A stretch of 22,834 nt of DNA from a virus. The notes under the pieces were generated by a model. That model did no database searches. It worked only from the letters and a program-made list of their open reading frames with translations, and was not told the origin of the DNA. Location: the IMG/VR virus record IMGVR_UViG_3300033571_000722, positions 1 to 22,834 of that record. One strand, written 5' to 3'. The translations under genes and the position numbers were made by a program. How positions within the stretch are numbered: position 1 is the stretch's first letter; each line of letters begins with the position of its first letter. Positions 3,227-22,834 of this stretch are shown piece by piece.

Positions 3227-3254
3227 TATAACAGATAAAACTTAAAAAGTATGT
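3227..3254 (-). promoter_or_regulatory. Phage promoter-like motif upstream of the protease gene
   Basis: On the minus strand this has TACTTTT, then an AT-rich spacer, then TGTTATAAT, a perfect extended -10 (TGnTATAAT). Layout and spacing match the motifs at 10836, 15860, 18346 and 21715. The predicted start site would be about 30 nt before the protease ATG at 3190. The upstream element overlaps the ATG (3251) of the divergent homing endonuclease gene. On the plus strand the same box reads TATAAC and has TTGAAT 19 nt upstream (3202-3207), so it could also serve that gene. Confidence 0.55.
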
Positions 3255-3697
3255 ATTACCTATACCATATTAAAGGAATTAAATGGGGATGTTCAAAAGA
3301 ATTACCCAATAGATTAAAAAGACAAGGATATACATTAGATGATGTATGTGAAATAGTTGAACAATCTGATATTGATATTGCTTCTGAATTAGAAAAAGAA
3401 TGGAATATTAGAGATGGTTATAGTTGGAATGATTCACAGGATTATAGAATAATTACAAAAGCTGCTTCACTAGGTGGTAAAGCATCTGTGCAAAATATGT
3501 TAAATAAAAGACCATCTACAAAAGGAGAAAGTAATATAAAAGCATTTTTAACCGAAACTGATGTACTGAATATCAGAAAAGATTATGAAGATGCCAAAAA
3601 AGGATATGGTGCATTATCTTCTTTGGCATCTAAGTACAACCTAAAACACGGTCATATATCATCAATTATCCATCGTAAAATATGGAAACACATTTAA
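3251..3697 (+). CDS. Probable free-standing GIY-YIG-like homing endonuclease
   Basis: A 148-aa protein and the only gene on the plus strand. Residues 1-70 begin MYYLYHIKGIKWGCS and continue NRLKRQGY, then ASELEKEWNIRDGY. This fits a compact GIY-YIG-like nuclease: YLYHI and KWG replace GIY and YIG, R in NRLKRQG is the expected catalytic Arg, and E in ELEKEW the likely metal-binding Glu. Residues 70-95 (ASLGGKASVQNML) resemble a NUMOD-type linker. Residues 98-148 (LTETDVLNIRKDY to IIHRKIWKHI) look like a helix-turn-helix that reads the target site. Its stop abuts the tape measure stop with no gap. Its start lies 60 nt from the divergent protease gene. This is the expected arrangement for an intron-less homing gene inserted at a gene boundary. 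Other DNA-binding roles are possible. Confidence 0.7.
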   Translation: MYYLYHIKGIKWGCSKELPNRLKRQGYTLDDVCEIVEQSDIDIASELEKEWNIRDGYSWNDSQDYRIITKAASLGGKASVQNMLNKRPSTKGESNIKAFLTETDVLNIRKDYEDAKKGYGALSSLASKYNLKHGHISSIIHRKIWKHI

Positions 3698-6600
3698 TTA
3701 TCCAGCATTAAATGTAGCAGCTCTGTTCGTTCTTCTATCTAATGCAGCTTGACTACTTATGTCTTGTGATACAACATATGCTCGTACGGGTTGCATTGCA
3801 CCTGTTAGAGTTTGTGCTAATTGTGTATTAGGGTTGGCTCCACCTTGTGTTTGTATTTGAGGTGCTTGTGTAGATGCTACCGTTGGTACTTGTGGTGGTG
3901 TTGGTAATGCAGAAGCTGAACTACCAATAGCTGCTCCACCTCCTGAACTACTTTGTGCATCAGCTGAATTTATCTGTTGTATAGATTTAACTGCTCCTGC
4001 AATTGTAGATGCAATAGATAAACCTGCTGAGATAGTATTAATTGCTACCCAAGGCATACCTGCCGTTAAAGGAGATGCAGCTACCGATTTGGCATTTGCA
4101 ATAGCAGTTTGTGCTATAATCTGTCCGATTGCAGCAGCTTGTGATATTACAACACCTGCAATTGCTAATCCTTTATTCTTACCTGCTATCTGTCCTAATA
4201 GATTACCGAATTGTTGAAACAATCCTAAGTAAGCCATATTGATTGCATGTTTAGCTTCCATTGCAGATTTCTCTGCTGCAACTTCTTTATCACTTAACGC
4301 AATTCTAGCATCAGCATACTTCTTACGAATTTCTGTTTTTTGGAATTCTGTAAGTTCAGTATTTGATAAATCCGTTGCTTCTTGCTCTGCAAGTATATCT
4401 TTTTGTTGTTGTATTCTTTCTAAATCAGCTTGAAAATCACCATCTATTAGAGCATTCTCTCTCTCCAATGCTTCAAATTTAGCCTGTAAGGTTGTTAAAA
4501 TAATACTTCTCTCTTCTTCTGCACTTAATTTCTTTTGTTCGGTTTTGTATTTTTCTAATTCAACCTCCGCGTTAATGAATTCTTTATTCTTAGCTAATGC
4601 TTCTTTACTTAATATATCTAAATTAGATTGATATGTTTTTTCTACTTCAACCTCTGCCGTAGAGAATTCTATATTCTTATTTAATGCTTCTTGATTTATT
4701 GTATCTAAATTAGATTGATATGTTTTTTCTATTTCTAATTTTTTAGCATCAAAATCTTGTTGAGTTATAGTTTGATTTTTTAATGCAGTTTGTAAATTAA
4801 CTAAATCTGTATCTCTTTTTGTATTTAAAGTTTGTTGTTCTTTATTTAAACTATCATTAATTAATGCTTCATTTACAATAGCAGCATTTTTACGAATATC
4901 AGATAACTTTTGTTGATATTGAGATTCTGTAATTTCACCTTTTGAAACTTTTAAATTCAATTGTGCTTCTTCTAATGCTACTGATTTGGTTAGTGATTGT
5001 TGAGCTTCGGTTAATGTCTTTTCTCTTAAATCTAATGCTGATTTTGCTGCCTTTTCATCCTTTTCTAATTGTTGCTTAGCAAACTTATCTTTAATTGCAG
5101 AGATTTCTTTCTCTCTATTTTCTTCAATTACTTTCGTATCTTTACCATATTTCTTAGCTTTTGTAGCTAATTCATCGTACTTTAATTTTACTGCTTCTAA
5201 CTCTTTTGATTGCTGACCTAAAAGAGATAATCGAGATTCTTCTAATCCTTTCTTAATTTCTCCTAATGCATCATTAGATGCTTTTGTAATAGCACTAAAA
5301 TCAATTGGTTTAGCTAAACCTTTCTTTAAAGTATCATTAACTAATGCTTCATTTTTAATAGCAGCATTTTTACGAATATCAAATAATTTATTTTGATACT
5401 CAGTTTCATCTATCTCACCCTTAGCTAATTTTAAACTTAATTGTGCTTCTTCTAATGCCGTCGCTTCACTTATTATCTTTTGAGCTTCACTTAATGCTTT
5501 TTCCTTTTTATCTAATAATTCTTTTGCCGCTCTCTCATCTTTTTCTAATTGTTGTTTAGCATACTTATCTCTAATTGTAGCATTTTCTTTTTGTCTAGCT
5601 TGCTCAATTATTGCAGTATCCATACCAAACTTTTTAGCTTTGGCAAGTAATGCATCATATTTTAATTTTACTAATTCTAACTCTTTTGCTTGTTCACCTA
5701 AAAGAGTTAATCTAGCTTCTTCTAACCCTTTCTTAACTTCTGCTAATGCATCATCACTTGCTTTTTTAGTAGCACTAAAATCAGGTGCTTTTGCTAAACC
5801 TTTCTTTAATTTCTTATCATTCTCAATTGCTAGTTTGGTAAGTTTATCTCCCTCTGCTGAAAACTTCTTTTCAGTTTCGGTAAGTTCTTTGAAATTACCA
5901 ACCATAGTTTCAGCCTGGTTGAGTGTCAATGACAACATACTACCACCCGATTTGATGAAATTCCCTGCGGTTTGCCAGAATGATGGGTCAACTCCTTCAC
6001 CACTAATTGCCTTAGCAGCTGCTTCTGCTGATTTTGCATAAAATACGTTAGCCTGTGTTCTTAGTTTTATTCCCTCAATTACTACTTGCGTATTAGATGC
6101 CATCAACTTTTCAGCTTGGTCTAATGAACCAGCATATCCAATGGTTGCACCTAATGTATCATTGTATTTTTTGAGAGCATCTTCCTTAGAAATTGTACCC
6201 TCCTTAGCTGCTTTAAAAGATGATTCAACATCAATTAATTTCTTATTAAAATCAGTAAGTGATTTAGTTACTTCAACTTGTGCTTCTTCATATGTTTTAG
6301 ATTCTGCCGTTGCACCTGTTATTGCATCAGCTACTTTATCCCAATTGGCAATTAATAAACCTAAACCAACAACTAATGCACCAATACCTGTGGCAGTTAA
6401 TGCAGCTGCAAATGCTTTTGCACCTGCTGCTGCGGCAGTTTCACTTACACCAACGGCAACAAATGAACGTGCTAATGCAGTATTAAGGATTGTATATACT
6501 TTCGTAATACCTGTTAAATCAAAGAATCCTTTTGCTACATCTCCTAAATCTTTACCTAATTCAACAAATGATGATTGTAAATCACTTATTTTTAATGCTC

Positions 6601-6877
6601 CAAATTGTTTTAATGTAGCAATCAAACCACTTGCTTGCCCACCGATAGCACCAATTGGACCTGGTAAACCACCCAATACATCAACAAAGTTACCTGCTCC
6701 TTTTCTTGCAGTAGCTAAACTATCCTGAACATCATCTATTTGTTGTTGTAGACGTAAGAATTCCTCAGAACCTGCGGCAGTATCTTTGATTTGTCTTTTT
6801 AAAGCTTTAAGATTTGCAATTGATGGTTCTACATCAGTTTCAACATCTACCTTTACTTTTATTTTCTTATCAGCCAT
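3698..6877 (-). CDS. Tail tape measure protein
   Basis: A 1059-aa protein and the largest gene in the window. It begins with a coiled-coil region (LKALKRQIKDTAAGSEEFLRL) and a Gly/Ala-rich hydrophobic part with a likely membrane-type segment near residues 145-180 (GIGALVVGLGLLIANW). A long charged helical region (about 190-840) and a second hydrophobic segment near 890-960 follow. It ends in an Ala/Pro/Gln-rich tail closing VRAYVVSQDISSQAALDRR. That ending and the overall layout are typical of tape measure proteins of Bacteroidota phages. These proteins set tail length and help DNA cross the host envelope. By the usual 0.15 nm per residue rule the tail would be about 150-160 nm. It contains two 160-aa tandem copies (about 357-676) and a 29-aa repeat (about 715-775). 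Its start overlaps the preceding small gene by 19 nt. Confidence 0.92.
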   Translation of the reverse strand: MADKKIKVKVDVETDVEPSIANLKALKRQIKDTAAGSEEFLRLQQQIDDVQDSLATARKGAGNFVDVLGGLPGPIGAIGGQASGLIATLKQFGALKISDLQSSFVELGKDLGDVAKGFFDLTGITKVYTILNTALARSFVAVGVSETAAAAGAKAFAAALTATGIGALVVGLGLLIANWDKVADAITGATAESKTYEEAQVEVTKSLTDFNKKLIDVESSFKAAKEGTISKEDALKKYNDTLGATIGYAGSLDQAEKLMASNTQVVIEGIKLRTQANVFYAKSAEAAAKAISGEGVDPSFWQTAGNFIKSGGSMLSLTLNQAETMVGNFKELTETEKKFSAEGDKLTKLAIENDKKLKKGLAKAPDFSATKKASDDALAEVKKGLEEARLTLLGEQAKELELVKLKYDALLAKAKKFGMDTAIIEQARQKENATIRDKYAKQQLEKDERAAKELLDKKEKALSEAQKIISEATALEEAQLSLKLAKGEIDETEYQNKLFDIRKNAAIKNEALVNDTLKKGLAKPIDFSAITKASNDALGEIKKGLEESRLSLLGQQSKELEAVKLKYDELATKAKKYGKDTKVIEENREKEISAIKDKFAKQQLEKDEKAAKSALDLREKTLTEAQQSLTKSVALEEAQLNLKVSKGEITESQYQQKLSDIRKNAAIVNEALINDSLNKEQQTLNTKRDTDLVNLQTALKNQTITQQDFDAKKLEIEKTYQSNLDTINQEALNKNIEFSTAEVEVEKTYQSNLDILSKEALAKNKEFINAEVELEKYKTEQKKLSAEEERSIILTTLQAKFEALERENALIDGDFQADLERIQQQKDILAEQEATDLSNTELTEFQKTEIRKKYADARIALSDKEVAAEKSAMEAKHAINMAYLGLFQQFGNLLGQIAGKNKGLAIAGVVISQAAAIGQIIAQTAIANAKSVAASPLTAGMPWVAINTISAGLSIASTIAGAVKSIQQINSADAQSSSGGGAAIGSSASALPTPPQVPTVASTQAPQIQTQGGANPNTQLAQTLTGAMQPVRAYVVSQDISSQAALDRRTNRAATFNAG
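4560..4735 (-). repeat. 87-bp (29-aa) tandem repeat in the tape measure gene
   Basis: Two in-frame units of EKTYQSNLD...EAL-x-KN-x-EF...AEVE lie 87 bases apart (matching blocks start at 4623 and 4710), with a third degenerate unit beginning LEKYKTE. They add length to the helical rod downstream of the 160-aa duplication. Confidence 0.75.
4847..5326 (-). repeat. Second copy of a 480-bp tandem duplication in the tape measure gene
   Basis: This copy encodes about 160 aa, starting near KKGLAKPIDFSA and ending near IRKNAAIVNEALIND. It lies exactly 480 bases from its partner: the blocks beginning at 5341 and 4861 match over most of a 40-base stretch. The copies have diverged at many third positions, so the duplication is not recent. 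Exact ends are approximate. Confidence 0.85.
5327..5806 (-). repeat. First copy of a 480-bp tandem duplication in the tape measure gene
   Basis: This copy encodes KKGLAKAPDFSA through IRKNAAIKNEALVND, in the same frame as the second copy at 4847-5326. Shared blocks include KQQLEKDE, ALEEAQL and IRKNAAI. Because the repeat is a multiple of three and helical, it lengthens the coiled coil without breaking it. Confidence 0.85.
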
Positions 6878-11251: not shown

Positions 11252-12769
11252 TTATCTTACTTGTGTTACTGTTAAGATTACTGATGGTACTAATGGTATA
11301 TTACCACTTGCAGGGAATGAAATCAATTTAATATTAGTATCAGATGTTTGCCAACACAATTCCCAATAATCACTGCTAGTTGATTCAACTACATAATTCC
11401 ATGCTGCTAATGCTTTTGCTTGATTAGCTCCACCACTAACTGTTAATACTCCTGCTGATGCAGTGTAATTAACTCCATTCTTTTTTAACCAAACATGGAC
11501 TGTGTCATTTCCACTACCAGTAACTCTATCAAATTGTGCAGAGAATTGGATATTGTATGTTCCACTATTTGCTAATGTTATTCTACTATTAGATACAATT
11601 GTTACACCTTGTGATATATCAGTTGTTTCAAAATTCATTGATTGAGAAACGTTTGCAGAACCAGATTGAGTTACTAATGAACTAAATGCTCCTACGTTAA
11701 ATTGTTTGTTTCCATGAACTACTAATCCATTACTACCACTTTGTATTACTAAATTACCACCATTTATTTGTGCACCTTGTGAACCAGTAAATGGAGCATT
11801 GATTGTAGTTCTACCCTCTGCTTGAATAAATCCAAAGAAAGCATTACCAAATGTTCCACCTTGATTATCAATCAACCATATATCTTGATTGACAGAACCT
11901 GTCATTCTAAAATCAAAAGTATTTCCATTATCAGAAACACCTAATCTCAAAACATCAGTTCCACCTGGTCTGTTTATGTAAATATGATTATCGTTAGAAC
12001 CTGATATACGTTGTGGTCCTACAAAGGTATTACTACCAGTAGTTGCAAATGAACCTGTGTTTATAGGTTGGTTAGATGCCGTATAAGAGTTTAATGCATT
12101 GATACTAATCTGTTGTGAAGCAGATGAAGCATTCAATTGTGTAATAGAACTATTAGTAGATGCCGTATATGAGTTAAATGAGGATGTTTGTAAGAATCCT
12201 AATGCAACTATCTGTGCCGAACCTGAAACAGTTCCTGCTGGTACAGTACCACTTGAATTTAATGTCACAGTTTGTTGTGAACCATCTCCTTTTGTATAAG
12301 TAAATTGATTATCAACAAGTGTACTAAATATATCAACAACTGAACTTGCAGTAATAGCAGATGTTGCATAAGATGATGTTGCTCCATTTAATGCATTTAT
12401 ACTAATTTGTTGTGAAGCAGAACTTGCATTCAACTGAGTTATAGAACTATTAGTTGATGATGTGTAAGCATTAAATGAAGATGTAGTTACAAATGAACCT
12501 GTGTTGATAGATGACCCACCACCAAAAGAAGATGTAGCAACTAATGTAGTTCTATTATTTGCATCTCCTACCCAAACATATCCATTTGTTAATGATGATG
12601 TAAGAGAACCGGATAAGAATACATTACCCAATGAATTTACAAAGACACCAATTCCATTACCTAAACCATCTTGTAATTGAACAGATGCCGTAGTAATTGT
12701 TGTATCGTTACCTAAATGAATTAAAGAGGTATAACTCTGTGAAATATATAAATTACTTAAACTTCCCAT
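11252..12769 (-). CDS. Fibre protein with C-terminal C1q/TNF-like jelly-roll domain
   Basis: A 505-aa protein. Residues 90-240 are Ser/Thr/Asn-rich heptad-like repeats, including two near-identical units (SSFNAYTSSTNSSI at about 97-128 and SSFNSYTASTNSSI at about 195-227), 99 residues apart. Residues 240-350 contain ATTGSNTFVGPQRISGS, a module also found in the 754-aa fibre. Residues 350-505 begin VHGNKQFNVGAFSS and carry NSRITLANSGTYNIQFSAQF, a WLKKNG turn and AWNYVVE. That order of strands is the jelly-roll of C1q/TNF-like domains on phage fibres, which trimerise and often bind surface sugars. The gene sits among neck genes, so it could be a head or neck fibre rather than a tail fibre. It follows the tail completion gene by 19 nt. 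Confidence 0.7.
   Translation of the reverse strand: MGSLSNLYISQSYTSLIHLGNDTTITTASVQLQDGLGNGIGVFVNSLGNVFLSGSLTSSLTNGYVWVGDANNRTTLVATSSFGGGSSINTGSFVTTSSFNAYTSSTNSSITQLNASSASQQISINALNGATSSYATSAITASSVVDIFSTLVDNQFTYTKGDGSQQTVTLNSSGTVPAGTVSGSAQIVALGFLQTSSFNSYTASTNSSITQLNASSASQQISINALNSYTASNQPINTGSFATTGSNTFVGPQRISGSNDNHIYINRPGGTDVLRLGVSDNGNTFDFRMTGSVNQDIWLIDNQGGTFGNAFFGFIQAEGRTTINAPFTGSQGAQINGGNLVIQSGSNGLVVHGNKQFNVGAFSSLVTQSGSANVSQSMNFETTDISQGVTIVSNSRITLANSGTYNIQFSAQFDRVTGSGNDTVHVWLKKNGVNYTASAGVLTVSGGANQAKALAAWNYVVESTSSDYWELCWQTSDTNIKLISFPASGNIPLVPSVILTVTQVR
12090..12190 (-). repeat. Downstream copy of an in-gene fibre repeat (297-bp period)
   Basis: This copy encodes about 30 residues around ITQLNASSASQQISINALN. 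It pairs with the copy at 12387-12487, exactly 297 bases (99 codons) away. DNA identity is high but not perfect. Likely a duplicated trimerising coiled-coil unit. Confidence 0.75.
12387..12487 (-). repeat. Upstream copy of an in-gene fibre repeat (297-bp period)
   Basis: Partner of the copy at 12090-12190. Both encode SSF-N-x-YT-x-STNSSITQLN followed by ASSASQQISINALN. Similar but weaker units occur in the 754-aa fibre, so the unit is shared between fibre genes. Confidence 0.75.
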
Positions 12770-12788: not shown

Positions 12789-13652
12789 TTAAGCCGTTGA
12801 CCAGGTTTTGAATGTTACGTTAGAACCAGATGACCAGTTTTGAAATGTAGTTCCCCATATTTGAGGTTCAATCCATTTTAAACAAGTTGGGCAATCTCCA
12901 AAATTAGTATAAGGTAATGCTAATATTGGTAAGTTTACTAAATCAAAATCATCTGAATTTTCAATTACATCAACAATAGTATAACAATCATAACCATAAG
13001 AAGTAGTGATGTTCTGAGATGCAGCAGGAACGTAGTTACTAGCAAACACTTGCCCTATACTACCACTTGAACTTAATATAGCTCTATATGTTCCACCACT
13101 AATACAATCTTGAATTACATACCCATTATCATTCGGATTAATCAAAAAAAAAAGGCAACGATTCTTATCGTTATGGGTAGTAAGTGTGAACTCTGCCATC
13201 CATCCTGCCAATCCATTATTGAATTGGTCTTGGAATGGAGTACAAGTTATTTCACCATTTACCTCAAACCCAACTACACCTCTTTGAGTATAAGCAGTTA
13301 AATCATTTAGAATTGCTAATGTGTTAGCATGAATATCAACAACATCTGTTGAACCAAAGAATGGAATTTCATCTTCGTTATTTCTAGCATCGGATTCGTT
13401 ATTCTTATTTTTGATTTTATCAGCAACTATTACCTGCACACTAAATTCAGTAATACTCGGTCCAAATGTGCTATTTAGAATGTTTATATTACCAATTGGG
13501 TATTGAGGAAATGCATATGTATCCAAACTTTCTAAATCACCCATTGTAACTAATGTTATAGATGGATGATTGTTCATAATAGTTCTAAAATAACTTAGAA
13601 CATTATAGTATAGAGTATAATTTACACCAGCATTATTTATTAAATTAGCCAT
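12789..13652 (-). CDS. Tail completion protein with Cys-rich C-terminal extension joined through a T10 tract
   Basis: A 287-aa reading frame. Residues 1-166 (MANLINNAGVNYTLYYNVL; FPQYPIGNINIL; NDLTAYTQRGVVGFEVNG; MAEFTLTTHNDKNRC) match in layout the tail completion or neck proteins that follow the DUF6712-type connector in Bacteroidota phages, which I recall ending close to the NRC segment. Codons 167-170 are a run of ten T. A slip of one base either way gives a stop within four codons, making a product of about 169-171 aa; normal reading adds 117 residues. The extension has two parts: a strand-rich module with C183, then YDCYTI and GDCPTC (C223, C254, C257), a Cys module I recall from phage structural proteins. 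It starts 6 nt after the connector gene. Confidence 0.65.
   Translation of the reverse strand: MANLINNAGVNYTLYYNVLSYFRTIMNNHPSITLVTMGDLESLDTYAFPQYPIGNINILNSTFGPSITEFSVQVIVADKIKNKNNESDARNNEDEIPFFGSTDVVDIHANTLAILNDLTAYTQRGVVGFEVNGEITCTPFQDQFNNGLAGWMAEFTLTTHNDKNRCLFFLINPNDNGYVIQDCISGGTYRAILSSSGSIGQVFASNYVPAASQNITTSYGYDCYTIVDVIENSDDFDLVNLPILALPYTNFGDCPTCLKWIEPQIWGTTFQNWSSGSNVTFKTWSTA
13144..13153 (-). promoter_or_regulatory. T10 slip tract inside the tail completion gene
   Basis: Ten A on the plus strand, read as CC-T10-GATTAA on the coding strand, at codons 167-170. In frame the reading continues for 117 codons. One extra T gives FFFD then stop; one fewer T gives an immediate TGA. RNA polymerase or ribosome slippage here would make a short form without the extension. 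Confidence 0.4.
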
Positions 13653-15946: not shown

Positions 15947-16495
15947 TTAACTATTACTTCCGTAAACGATAGTTCCACCATTTAATACTGATGTTGGAAA
16001 AGCAGTAGATGTAGAAGAACCAGATAAGAATGCTGCTGGCAATTGTTCCATACCTGTAAATGTTACAGAGTATCCGTACAAATCACCTAATGCTGCACCA
16101 GTTTGGATTGTTCCACCTGTTACATCAGCTCCTAATTTTTCTCCAACTAATAATGTATCACCATTGTTGGTCCAAATTAAGATTTGTGGTCTACCATAAG
16201 CCATCAACTTTAATTGAGTGCTCATTTCGTTTGTTAATTTCTTCAAGTTAAGAACTAATTCTTGTGAGAAGAAAGTTGTACCGTTATCTCTTGAAGAGTT
16301 TACGGTTTCAGTATAACTTGAATTTCCCTTTAACTGATAATAGTAAAGAGATGATGATGGAGGTAAAGCAGTTACCTCACCACTTCCGTTCTTTGTGAAA
16401 GAGCCAGTTGTATAGTTAATAAAATATACCCCTTGGATACCTCCTATTGATTCTTTACATACTTCGTTTCTTCCAGCTGATAAATTACAAGCCAT
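15947..16495 (-). CDS. Major tail tube protein (probable)
   Basis: A 182-aa protein starting MACNLSAGRNEVCKESIGGI. It continues with VYFINY and then YYYQLKGNSSYTETVNSSRDNGTTFF, LVLNLKKLTNEMSTQLKLMAYGRPQI, and GADVTGGTIQTGAALGDLYGYSVTFTGMEQLP. I recognise this string of blocks from the major tail or tube proteins of Bacteroidota phages, with the VTGG-x-x-x-TGAA-x-GDL core and the final FTGMEQ strand. Its place next to the capsid gene, in a cassette that ends at a strong terminator, fits a very abundant virion protein. The start codon at 16495 is 62 nt from the capsid stop; the spacer holds a hairpin that may adjust output between the two. Confidence 0.8.
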   Translation of the reverse strand: MACNLSAGRNEVCKESIGGIQGVYFINYTTGSFTKNGSGEVTALPPSSSLYYYQLKGNSSYTETVNSSRDNGTTFFSQELVLNLKKLTNEMSTQLKLMAYGRPQILIWTNNGDTLLVGEKLGADVTGGTIQTGAALGDLYGYSVTFTGMEQLPAAFLSGSSTSTAFPTSVLNGGTIVYGSNS

Positions 16496-18389: not shown

Positions 18390-19148
18390 CTATGATACAG
18401 TTAGTCTTTGTTTGAATACATACCAGTTCTGTCTAATCTGTTTTGGTGATAAAACAAATGGATATACCATATATGCCATCATAACTCCATTCAGATAATT
18501 GTTACTCAAAGCATTCTTACCTATTCTAATGTTTGCAGTTGATGGAGAAAACAATCCTCTATCATATGTGTTAGTATCTGTTGAGTTTGTACTACCATCA
18601 TTTAGATACATAGTATGTGAATTTAAACCATTGGTTGTAAATGTTACCACATTCCATCCATTATATTGTGATACCAATGTTACATTACAACTTAAAGTTG
18701 CTTGTGTATTTCCACTTGCTCCATACCATATAGTAGGTGTTACAACTCCCGCAGTTGAAAGCACTAAATTTAATCCGTTATTGTTTTGTAATCCAACTAA
18801 TGCACCATTTTGAAATTCTCCTCCTCCTTTATAAACAGAAACAACAGACATTGCTCCCGTAGGAAATGTAGAGTTAAATACAGTATTCAAACCATTTGAT
18901 GCATTGAATCCTATACTACCACCATATGAAGTGCTCCACATAGAAGCAGCTGCACCACCACCTGTTTGGAATTGCCCTTGTGGCTCTCCACTATTATATA
19001 CATTAGATGTTATACCACCTGCTCCTTGACCAGGAGGATATGATACAGGATTCCCCCAATCAAATATTAGATTTGCTCCATTTACATATGCAAATTTAGC
19101 AAAGTTGATTTGTTCCCCGCTACTCTTTACAAAAAATTGTGGTATCAT
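18390..19148 (-). CDS. LamG/concanavalin-like structural protein
   Basis: A 252-aa protein starting MIPQFFVKSSGEQINFAKF. The region from residue 90 on (FPTGAMSVVSVYKGGGEFQ, NGWNVVTFTTNGLNSHTMYL) and especially the end (IRIGKNALSNNYLNGVMMAY, YPFVLSPKQIRQNWYVFKQR) match the LamG/concanavalin A-like jelly-roll found on phage fibres and spikes: a last pair of strands followed by an 'L-S-x-x-Q-I-x-x-NW' helix. Such domains bind sugars or other surface groups. It lies one base after the stop of the 754-aa fibre gene, so it is probably a fibre partner or a separately encoded tip. No signal peptide is visible. Confidence 0.65.
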   Translation of the reverse strand: MIPQFFVKSSGEQINFAKFAYVNGANLIFDWGNPVSYPPGQGAGGITSNVYNSGEPQGQFQTGGGAAASMWSTSYGGSIGFNASNGLNTVFNSTFPTGAMSVVSVYKGGGEFQNGALVGLQNNNGLNLVLSTAGVVTPTIWYGASGNTQATLSCNVTLVSQYNGWNVVTFTTNGLNSHTMYLNDGSTNSTDTNTYDRGLFSPSTANIRIGKNALSNNYLNGVMMAYMVYPFVLSPKQIRQNWYVFKQRLTVS

Positions 19149-19149
19149 A

Positions 19150-21414
19150 TTATACGAATGAATAAGCAGGTACTAAATAAACATTAGTTGAATCTACCGA
19201 AGTTAATGATATAATATCAGTTGAACCAGATGGAGATGGAACGTATGAAGAACCTGATACCTGTTTTACGTTTGAACTAAACGATGCAGTTACAGATGCT
19301 CCTGTTGTAATTACTAATGTTGCAGTTACACCAGGTCTAGGGTTTGTTACATTTATGTTTGTAGTACCTGATAGAGTTAAAGTAAAGTAGTTAGCTACAC
19401 TTAAATCTATACTTGCAGTTTGTGATGTTATAGATGATGCGGATACGTTACCATATACAGAACCCGTAATAGTTAAAGAACCACTAACATTTAGAGTTCC
19501 CTCTACAAATGTGTTAGAACCACTATCAATTAAGAAAGCTGTTTTAGGTGTAGTTGTTGTTCCTGTACCAATTGCAAATACTGTTTCAGCAGTTTTAGCT
19601 TTGTTACCATCTTGTGCATTAAATCTACCAAAGAATGCAGAACCATAAGTATTACTTCTTATTGGTGCACCGGTTTGTAATGCTGCTGAACCAGTTACAC
19701 CTAAATTATGTCCAATGATTGCAGTTGCAACTATATTGGAATTATCACCATTTAGATTTAGGGATGCTGAATTAAATGTTCCCGCTAATAAGTTTGCATT
19801 AAACTGTCTTCCGGTTGCAGCAGTTGTATTAGAACCAGATGCGTATAATAAAGTAGCACTACCAAATATAGCATTACCTTGTTGCATTGATAATGAATTA
19901 CCACCACCGGTTGCGGATGCATTATAGTAACTATTATTTACAGTTAAATTGGCATTTTGTATTGTATTAACTGCTAATGTTAAAGATGAACTATCTGCAT
20001 TTAACGATACTGTGCCACCTATATTATTAGAAGCTATTAGCATTGTAGAAGAACTAATAAAATTAGTTTTATATGCAGTTACATTTACAGTTCCATTTAC
20101 AATATTGTTTGTTATGGTAGTTCCGTTTATTGCTCTTTCATAATTGGTAGAAGCGGCAGTTCCTAAACTTATTGTTCCACCAAATAGACCATTATTAGTT
20201 ATACTATATGCAGATGAACTAACAGGTCCTCTAACTGTCATTCCAAACGTATTGGTGTTTGCAAAATAGTTACCACTCAAAGTTGGAGAGAATCCCATAG
20301 AAGCAGAGAACTGTGGTAAACCAGTTGCTACTAATCCTATGTTACCAGTTGTTAAATATCTTCTGAATCCTGCCGTATTTGCGTTAGGATTTGCAATTAT
20401 ATTATTACTACCTGATATTACAGTATCACTTGTAGTAGAACTTGCCTTAAAAATTAAATTGAGTTGGTTAGCAGATGATGTATAGTTAGATAGTGTGGAT
20501 GAACCAGATGCTATCGTTTTACCTGTCAATACTAACGAACCACTATATGATTGTATAGCAACCGTATTACCAGTCGTATCTGCTATCGTTTCTGTACCTG
20601 TTATAAATTGGTCTCCTACAAATACATTTGAACCCGTAGTTGCAAATCCTAATCCAAATATAGTTGATGAGGTGAATTGATTAAATGATGATGTGTTTAA
20701 CTTTGTATCTATATTAGCTTGTAATACAGATGATGAATAATCCAATTCACCTTGTGTTGCATAACCACCACTTAAAGATGATGATAAGTTTAATAATTCT
20801 TGTATAGATGCAGTTGCTGATGCATTCCAAATTGCTTGTGATGCACTAACTGAATATAATGAAGAAGATATACCATTAATAGATGTTGCAACAGATGCAC
20901 TATATGCATTGAATGAAGAAGTAGTTACATAACTCGGGTCTGTTAATATAGTAATAGAAGCAATTGGTCCATTTACATTAGGAACAATACTAGCTGATAC
21001 TAATCCATTAAAGAAGAATCTTGTAGATGTTCCTATACTTGCACCATTAACTATAATTTGATTTATAGAAGATGTGAATGCTTGTAATGTTGTTACCTCT
21101 GCATCTAATGTGTTTATAGATGTATTAGCACTTTGTGTGAATGTATTTACACCTGAGTTTATACTCAATTGAGATGCCGTAAAAGCATTCAATGCAGTAA
21201 ACGATGGTTGTTGTGATGATGTAAATGTATTTAACGCAGATATAGATTGATTCCAACTACCACTATTAGATGTGTATTGAGATTGATTAACTGTTGAGTC
21301 AATCATATCAGTATTGAAATCTCTTAATAAAGCAGGTGTTATATATCCTGTATTATTATTTGGGAAGCTTGTAGTATTCTCTACGGCCAAAGCCTGTTTT
21401 GATATTTGAGACAT
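19150..21414 (-). CDS. Large Ser/Asn-rich fibre protein
   Basis: A 754-aa protein starting MSQISKQALAVENTTSFPNN. Residues 30-260 are Ser/Asn/Thr-rich helical repeats (FTSSQQPSFTALNAFTASQ, then FNAYSASVATSINGISSSL), much like the repeats of the 505-aa fibre. Residues near 255-280 contain FATTGSNVFVGDQFITGTE, a module also in that protein. Residues 280-680 are beta-rich (SYSGSLVLTGKTIASGSSTL, TLAVNTIQNANLTVNNSYYN), as in beta-helical fibre shafts. Residues 680-754 form a Thr-rich C-terminal domain (LSGTTNINVTNPRPGVTATL). It follows the 86-aa Cys-rich gene by 22 nt and precedes the LamG-like gene by one base. A tail or head fibre is likely; which one is not settled. Confidence 0.7.
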   Translation of the reverse strand: MSQISKQALAVENTTSFPNNNTGYITPALLRDFNTDMIDSTVNQSQYTSNSGSWNQSISALNTFTSSQQPSFTALNAFTASQLSINSGVNTFTQSANTSINTLDAEVTTLQAFTSSINQIIVNGASIGTSTRFFFNGLVSASIVPNVNGPIASITILTDPSYVTTSSFNAYSASVATSINGISSSLYSVSASQAIWNASATASIQELLNLSSSLSGGYATQGELDYSSSVLQANIDTKLNTSSFNQFTSSTIFGLGFATTGSNVFVGDQFITGTETIADTTGNTVAIQSYSGSLVLTGKTIASGSSTLSNYTSSANQLNLIFKASSTTSDTVISGSNNIIANPNANTAGFRRYLTTGNIGLVATGLPQFSASMGFSPTLSGNYFANTNTFGMTVRGPVSSSAYSITNNGLFGGTISLGTAASTNYERAINGTTITNNIVNGTVNVTAYKTNFISSSTMLIASNNIGGTVSLNADSSSLTLAVNTIQNANLTVNNSYYNASATGGGNSLSMQQGNAIFGSATLLYASGSNTTAATGRQFNANLLAGTFNSASLNLNGDNSNIVATAIIGHNLGVTGSAALQTGAPIRSNTYGSAFFGRFNAQDGNKAKTAETVFAIGTGTTTTPKTAFLIDSGSNTFVEGTLNVSGSLTITGSVYGNVSASSITSQTASIDLSVANYFTLTLSGTTNINVTNPRPGVTATLVITTGASVTASFSSNVKQVSGSSYVPSPSGSTDIISLTSVDSTNVYLVPAYSFV

Positions 21415-21743: not shown

Positions 21744-22507
21744 TTAACGCATAGATTTCATTGCCTGTTTATGTAAGAGTTCTTCTAACTGTATTCTATC
21801 AGCTCTGAATGAAAGATACAAAAGACATTTTTCTAACGGTTGTTTAATAACTTCGTCAAATTTAAGGATGTCTCCATTGGAGAGTTCAAAGATTGTTGAA
21901 TAAGCAGACCACTTCTTTGCAAAATTGGCTTGATGGTCGGATGAAGCTCCTCCTCCATCAAAGAGTTCAGGATAGAACTCACTAAGTCGGTGTGTAAATT
22001 TAACAAAAAAAAAAGAGCACCAAAGTGTACATCCATAGGTACATCTAAAAACTTCTCCCAATTCAAATCTCCATCATATGGTTTTATCGAATACATCTCT
22101 CCTTTCTTATGTTTAATAGGTCTGTATAAGATGTTCATTATCTTTCCCCAATTATCATCTATTGCAATATTTTCAAATTTAGATATATCAGCATAAGCAC
22201 CATAAGACATCTTAGATAAGTTTGGTTCAAACCCATACTCTACACCATCTATTTTGATGTGTTCTTTTAAAGGTAAATCTACCTTTGTCATAAACGAATT
22301 TAATGATTCTCTAATCATTGTATAATCCTCCATACTTAATCCTCTGAAATATAAGGGGTCTAAACCACATAGGTGTTGCAACATAACCGCAGTTACTGCT
22401 TCGTTATCTCCTTCGTAGTTTTTAATTTCCTTTTGTAATTCCAACCATTGCTTTAAAGTTATATCTTCGTATGATGTTGGTAATGTTAGTTCTAATTCTT
22501 TTTTCAT
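21744..22507 (-). CDS. Tail assembly chaperone-like protein expressed through a -1 frameshift
   Basis: The coding frame from 22507 runs to a stop at 21833 (224 aa). A second frame, shifted by -1 at a run of ten T (22005-22014), runs on to 21744. Joining them gives 254 aa: residues 1-167 (KKELELTLPTSYEDITLKQW; EYGFEPNLSKMSYGAYADI; MNILYRPIKHKKGEMYSI; FGALFF), then FVKFTHRLSEFYPELFDG, KKWSAYSTIFELSNGD and KFDEVIKQPLEKCLLYLSFR. Both the 57-codon end in frame 0 and the 87-codon end in frame -1 look like real protein, which fits a programmed frameshift of the gpG/gpGT type that makes two chaperone forms for tail assembly. A homopolymer sequencing error is the main alternative. It lies next to the terminase, unlike normal chaperone genes. 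Confidence 0.6.
22005..22014 (-). promoter_or_regulatory. T10 slip tract (candidate -1 frameshift site)
   Basis: Ten A on the plus strand, read on the coding strand as CTC-T10-GTT. The frame-0 codons are CTT TTT TTT TTG; reading one T twice gives CTT TTT TTT TTT GTT and enters the -1 frame. A run of U is a standard substrate for -1 slipping by ribosomes and for polymerase slippage. No clear downstream hairpin was established by eye. Confidence 0.5.
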
Positions 22508-22519
22508 AGTTTACAATTG

Positions 22520-22711
22520 TTAATTGTTTACATTTGTTAAATGTGCAATATACATAGTTAGTTTCCTAACCTTTGCTTCTTCATTATCTAATTTAGCTTG
22601 CATCGTTATAATACCCGCTCTTAAATCTTCGTTGGTTTGTTGCAACTCTTGTGCAAATAAGATTAAATCTCTAATCTCTTCTGCTGTCCATACTTGTGTT
22701 GGTTCATTCAT
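22520..22711 (-). CDS. Small coiled-coil protein after the terminase gene
   Basis: A 63-aa protein starting MNEPTQVWTAEEIRDLILFA. Residues 10-55 are a charged amphipathic helix (AQELQQTNEDL, then AKLDNEEAKVRKL) typical of a short coiled coil. I do not recognise a family and see no catalytic motif. It is coupled to the terminase gene by a one-base TAATG overlap and precedes the chaperone-like gene by 12 nt. A small accessory or assembly factor is possible; the call rests on coding quality and tight spacing. Confidence 0.65.
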   Translation of the reverse strand: MNEPTQVWTAEEIRDLILFAQELQQTNEDLRAGIITMQAKLDNEEAKVRKLTMYIAHLTNVNN

Positions 22712-22834
22712 TATATTCTGTTCTTACCTATGGAGATAGCATAACTACCTTTCTTCTGTGCTTTCTGTGTTAGTTTCATTAGTGCTACATATCTTGCAGC
22801 ATCTAATAAGTGGTCTAATCCTCCTTCTGGATTA
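22711..22834 (-). CDS. terL: Terminase large subunit, C-terminal fragment
   Basis: The last 40 residues of a gene that begins beyond the right edge. The visible part includes GGLDHLLDAARYVALMKL, the 'DH-x-LDA-x-RY' end of the terminase nuclease domain, where the Asp helps bind metal in the RNase H-like site. Terminase cuts and pumps phage DNA into the prohead. The stop at 22711 overlaps the start of the next gene by one base. Only the C-terminus is seen, so ATPase motifs could not be checked, and a resolvase-like nuclease remains a remote alternative. Confidence 0.7.
   Translation of the reverse strand, partial: NPEGGLDHLLDAARYVALMKLTQKAQKKGSYAISIGKNRI

Follow-up and report, generated by a model that had tools for sequence, protein, structure and literature searches.

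The window analysed here – the whole 22,834-nucleotide stretch of virus record IMGVR_UViG_3300033571_000722 – carries on its minus strand a gene that can be read to two different ends. Its 0-frame ORF (21833..22507, minus strand; ATG at 22507, stop at 21833-21835), which ORF translation and profile searches describe as a tail-assembly-chaperone-like short form of 224 aa, consists of a conserved N-terminal part (N-part) of about 166 aa and a 57-codon 0-frame extension. The two parts meet at a candidate slip site, a run of ten T residues (T10; 22005..22014, minus strand) that is read CTT TTT TTT TTG in the 0 frame and holds the heptamer T_TTT_TTT. Past T10, the 57 codons of the 0 frame compare with 87 in the -1 frame, which stays open to 21744; the 87-aa tail so encoded (21744..22007, minus strand), recognised by comparison with homologues and by the tail profile phrog_38404, would form the C-terminus of a 254-aa long form. 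The two frames overlap over 172 nt (21833..22004, minus strand), a stretch that appears dual-coding from its openness and synonymous conservation. A sequence-only reading of the window had described two overlapping frames meeting at T10, with 57 and 87 codons and about 170 nt in common, and every part of that description holds on the minus strand.

The gene's position beside the terminase, also claimed in that reading, was confirmed through a related locus: the partial C-terminal end of a terminase large subunit in the window (22711..22834, minus strand) has the same C-terminus as a complete terminase copy there (L002:3672-4838), which matches PF04466 at E 7e-23. A probable tape-measure protein of 1059 aa (3698..6877, minus strand) – suggested by its length, coiled repeats and a hydrophobic stretch, and without any profile match – is separated from the chaperone-like gene by about 15 kb. 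A 182-aa gene (15947-16495, minus strand) belongs to phrog_19091, is shared with P12024S_09 of the isolated Nonlabens phage P12024S, and is possibly, by position, a tail-tube protein. The minus strand also encodes two long, Ser/Thr/Asn-rich, repetitive and structural-looking proteins (19150-21414 and 11252-12769), one of which adjoins a laminin-G-like gene (18390-19148), while a 148-aa ORF at 3251-3697, on the plus strand and thus opposite to the neighbouring structural genes, has the appearance of a homing-endonuclease-type insert.

Homologues of the T-run junction

Homologues were fetched through N-part or tail peptides, and the T run itself was never a search criterion. A first peptide-based scan of IMG/VR gave 80 close relatives; scans that took the -1 tail or distant members as queries, together with one genome scan, enlarged these to a final set of 274 distinct homologous junctions from IMG/VR, Nonlabens phages and one MAG contig. 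The conserved T run that the sequence-only reading proposed looking for is present at all 274 of them – T9 at 179, T10 at 88 and T11 at 7 – and because the searches were blind to it, its presence at every junction is more than chance would give. A run shorter than nine T, or a homologue with a single unbroken frame, occurs at none of the 274 junctions. As a consequence of this minimal length, the heptamer T_TTT_TTT, of the canonical X_XXY_YYZ type, is in phase in every homologue.

The tail stands in the -1 relation to the N-part at all 273 junctions where both halves can be scored, which bears out the proposed programmed -1 event. The fused proteins, of about 254 aa, can be aligned from end to end and have invariant residues before as well as after the slip; the -1 tail keeps the motif YPELF..F.KKW..Y....PLEKCLLYLAY. 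The two C-termini, which had been called natural-looking from the window alone, are both supported by this comparison.

P12024S and P12024L, two phages of Nonlabens that have been isolated, show the same arrangement, with T9. In P12024S, the N-part and the tail are annotated as two separate hypothetical genes, P12024S_38 and P12024S_39, which an unannotated T9 frameshift joins (JQ823122 23136-23829; L082:6001-6694); the tail was located here by reading onward from the N-part match, since a tblastn search of phages with the -1 tail alone gave no match. Likewise, phrog_32199 (matched by the window's 0-frame ORF at E 3e-13) and phrog_38404, listed by PHROGs as separate families of unknown function, are the two halves of one recoded gene in P12024S and P12024L, so that an annotation is repaired.

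Long homopolymers are error-prone, yet sequencing or assembly error, or decay of the gene, has next to nothing left in its favour, given that 274 distinct sequences, those of the isolates P12024S and P12024L among them, share one relation, that both frames are conserved and that the 0 frame is kept open; moreover, the codon phase differs between T9, T10 and T11 while each keeps the -1 relation, which rules out a read error behind the ten-T length in so many assemblies. Hardly more probable is a phase-variation contingency locus, in which replication slippage would alter the run length between phage generations and so switch the fusion on and off. Homopolymers do slip in replication too (PMC3711429), and lengths of 9, 10 and 11 all occur, but not one of the 273 scored assemblies has the halves fused; they are out of frame in all 273, and the changes in length are accompanied by changes in codon phase that preserve the -1 relation. 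Sequencing error, pseudogene formation and phase variation were all rejected on this uniform out-of-frame relation of the 273 homologues. Judged on the sequences compared, programmed recoding at the T run, rather than error, decay or phase variation, is almost certain.

Dual coding and the nature of the protein

The openness of the 0 frame was compared with a null in which the -1 protein is fixed and its codons are redrawn according to codon usage within the family. Under this null, a stop would usually interrupt the 0 frame after anything from a few to about 20 codons, whereas some 50 codons were in fact open (40 representatives, median P 0.002); in P12024S, the extension is 24 codons and its openness is not significant. 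Synonymous codon identity relative to expectation is raised as well, at 1.37x in the overlap compared with 1.19 on either side of it, the confidence intervals overlapping marginally. The roughly 170 nt of dual coding claimed from the window thus find support in both measures. The similarity of the 0-frame proteins also exceeds simulation, by 0.89 with stops excluded, against 0.17-0.37 in control stretches; however, the third frame of the overlap shows an excess of 0.77, which means that part of the 0-frame similarity reflects general nucleotide conservation. The proposed selection on both frames therefore stands as regards the 0 frame being kept open and is weaker as regards its exact residues; we read this as selection that maintains both frames, acting more strongly on 0-frame openness than on residue identity.

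What the protein does is suggested by distant similarities. Phage_TAC_7 (PF10109), the family of P2 gpE and Mu gp41, matches the window protein with 16.4 bits (E 0.009), which is below the cut-off of 25 bits, and 11 of 30 relatives match it too, the best at E 3e-4; phrog_166, annotated 'tail', is matched by 18 of the same number, down to E 2.4e-4. An AlphaFold2 model of N-part residues 1-166 reaches a pLDDT of 90.7 and resembles uncharacterised phage proteins; among predicted viral proteins, one named tail assembly chaperone appears only at E 0.035. Sequence and fold searches of the PDB with the N-part returned no match, and a pairwise profile comparison with P2 gpE was not significant (probability 0.5%). 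The gene does not lie between the major tail protein and tape-measure genes but adjoins the terminase instead, as its P12024S homologue does.

The P2 gene E, with gpE and gpE+E' as its products, offers a close parallel in layout: there, too, a tail gene has a U-rich site at which a -1 shift yields a short and a long form, with weak profile similarity to the proteins described here. Its annotated -1 frameshift site, GGT TTT TTG, has six T's and then G, compared with the 9-11 T always found here, and E directly precedes the tape measure whereas the window gene follows the terminase. Hence the earlier suggestion that a pure-U slip site is undescribed holds only in part: U-rich sites in tail genes are known from P2, albeit with only six T's. 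In phage lambda, the slip sequence of gpG/gpGT differs from the T run. Lambda gpG and gpGT likewise share an N-part and differ by a -1-encoded C-terminus (PMC5009743), but the window gene has a selected 57-codon 0-frame extension and a different gene position. Of the proposed analogy with lambda gpG/gpGT, the two-form -1 layout is upheld, but family membership is no more than plausible, the PF10109 match being below its cut-off, the position unlike that in lambda or P2 and the model without a match among solved structures.

A dual-product gene that is real but serves another purpose, for instance as a terminase-linked packaging or head-completion factor, would accord with its place beside the terminase and its distance of some 15 kb to the tape measure, as well as with the sub-threshold Pfam match, the missing PDB fold match and the negative comparison with P2 gpE. 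We consider this unlikely, since the matches to Phage_TAC_7 and to a tail PHROG among the relatives speak against it and an extended second form made by a -1 shift is typical of chaperones. A chaperone-like role is, on balance, fairly probable; by analogy, the gene would work like gpG/gpGT in its two-form layout, and membership of a tail-chaperone family is plausible. The N-part would then bind the tape measure, while the -1 tail would recruit tail-tube subunits in a minority of molecules, as in gpG/gpGT or P2 gpE/E+E'; by the same analogy, the long form is presumably the minority product.

Polymerase or ribosome at the T run

However the shift occurs, one gene would yield two proteins with a common N-part, of about 224 aa (0 frame) and about 254 aa (-1 frame). 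The sequence-only reading took the slip to be ribosomal; a run that is always at least nine long points no less to slippage by RNA polymerase. The polymerase would slip on the T run, adding one U or dropping two in some mRNAs, and with the U count altered in part of the mRNAs, ordinary translation would read the -1 tail. On runs of 9 A or T, slippage by bacterial RNA polymerase is efficient, its hybrid measuring 9-10 bp (PMC5009743), and the E. coli enzyme prefers poly(T) for slipping, which reaches about 10% already at T8 (PMC6260861). Such programmed transcriptional realignment is known from Thermus dnaX (a run of nine) and Shigella mxiE (a T run), which have a homopolymer of at least 9 A or T in common with the window gene; it needs no stimulatory structure and gives products in more than one frame. 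A conserved homopolymer of at least 8-9 A or T at the shift, by which realignment is recognised, is present here, with a minimum of nine in 274.

The way in which the run is maintained is informative. Its start differs in codon position between lineages, and a tree built from the N-part only implies about 15 changes of run architecture (length or phase), 12 of them of phase, with the run at nine or more throughout. An NTT first codon goes with a fourth codon starting with T in 201 of 201 cases; with TTT in first place, the fourth is free and begins with a base other than T in 65 of 72. The residues at these compensating codons vary between lineages, in both frames (V/L/I/F and W/Y/L/F/V/A/I, with F/L/C/Y/S in the -1 frame). 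Independent pairs that show compensation on well-supported branches number only four (sign test p 0.125), so common descent and residue preferences could account for part of the minimum of nine. At other [LVIF]FF motifs in the fetched loci (n=33), the longest T run is 6, and runs of at least nine T are nearly absent elsewhere on the coding strand. As a separate observation, Phe-Phe motifs other than those at the two T-run sites use TTC far above the prediction from codon usage across all fetched loci, as if T runs were avoided.

The strongest competitor is programmed -1 ribosomal frameshifting on U_UUU_UUU (and, in T10 members, on U_UUU_UUR as well), as in P2 gene E: two tRNA-Phe would slip back by one base in a minority of ribosomes, producing the long chaperone form. 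The heptamer lies in the correct phase in all members, the known shifts in tail chaperones – lambda and P2 gene E among them – are treated as ribosomal (PMC5009743; P2 annotation), and other phage chaperone sites shifted 6-7% in E. coli assays (PMC3711429). Yet seven T's suffice for this mechanism and runs of 7 or 8 occur in 0 of 274, while the run ends compensate; U_UUU_UUU is, moreover, weaker than A_AAA_AAG in E. coli. RNAalifold found no conserved RNA structure downstream of the run that might be stimulatory (31 sequences, -0.43 kcal/mol, no double compensation), and a Shine-Dalgarno-like stimulator was rejected because the upstream GGAG seen in many members is absent from the window and from distant ones. 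We rate ribosomal frameshifting as a serious contender at somewhat less than even odds. A run that never falls below nine and whose ends compensate is something that the heptamer would not need but a polymerase hybrid of 9-10 bp would, which narrowly favours polymerase as the main slipping machine over the ribosome; from these sequence patterns, we would call polymerase slippage about an even bet.

A second T10 run in a tail-terminator-like gene

The only other coding-strand run of eight or more T in the window is again T10 (13144..13153, minus strand), reading CTT TTT TTT TTG in the identical codon phase. It falls within a 287-aa gene (12789..13652, minus strand) called tail-terminator-like because its structural model matches tail terminators, resembling those of Mu (9khy) and lambda gpU (3fz2) over residues about 12-160. 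Confidence for the whole model is modest (pLDDT 63), and the run lies in a low-confidence linker, residues 162-175, ahead of a second domain. One gene of P12024S that had initially been assigned as the terminator turned out to be related to the window's 182-aa gene instead.

The exact T10 occurs in 57 of 59 distinct homologues of the terminator-like gene, as LFFL encoded by CTT TTT TTT TTR, for which codon usage would predict 4% each. One of the two exceptions has the same residues without the run and the other a different residue, so that the site is strongly, though not absolutely, conserved. In nearly all homologues, a stop follows the run after 2-6 codons in the -1 frame and immediately in the +1 frame. 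From the sequence, a slip in either direction would truncate the terminator to about 170 aa and remove its C-terminal domain; a short form would thus arise in the way that truncation makes gamma from dnaX.

Tail chaperones made in two forms are already known, and so is slippage at T runs. In the literature searched, which included few subscription papers, we found no description of an obligate run of at least nine T in a chaperone-like gene, of a polymerase origin for the shift or of a twin site in a terminator, and transcriptional realignment in phage tail chaperones is not known from the papers found. A bolder reading, to which we assign a probability of roughly 0.4, is that in a widespread lineage of phages, probably of Bacteroidota, programmed slippage of RNA polymerase at runs of at least nine T controls two tail-building genes, the chaperone-like one and the terminator, in place of the ribosomal frameshift that other tailed phages use to this end. 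If polymerase slips, the two-form logic of tail chaperones would have been reached by a second decoding route, with the product ratio set in the RNA and not on the ribosome. The second T10 suggests that the same phages also tune their tail terminator, which is without precedent among the papers found. P12024S and P12024L, isolated on a cultured host, allow a direct test.

The T-run gene also occurs on MAG contig PAPR01000004.1 (L171), from a bin named Pseudooceanicola; this contig resembles marine viral contigs and is probably a phage contig that was binned with the MAG.
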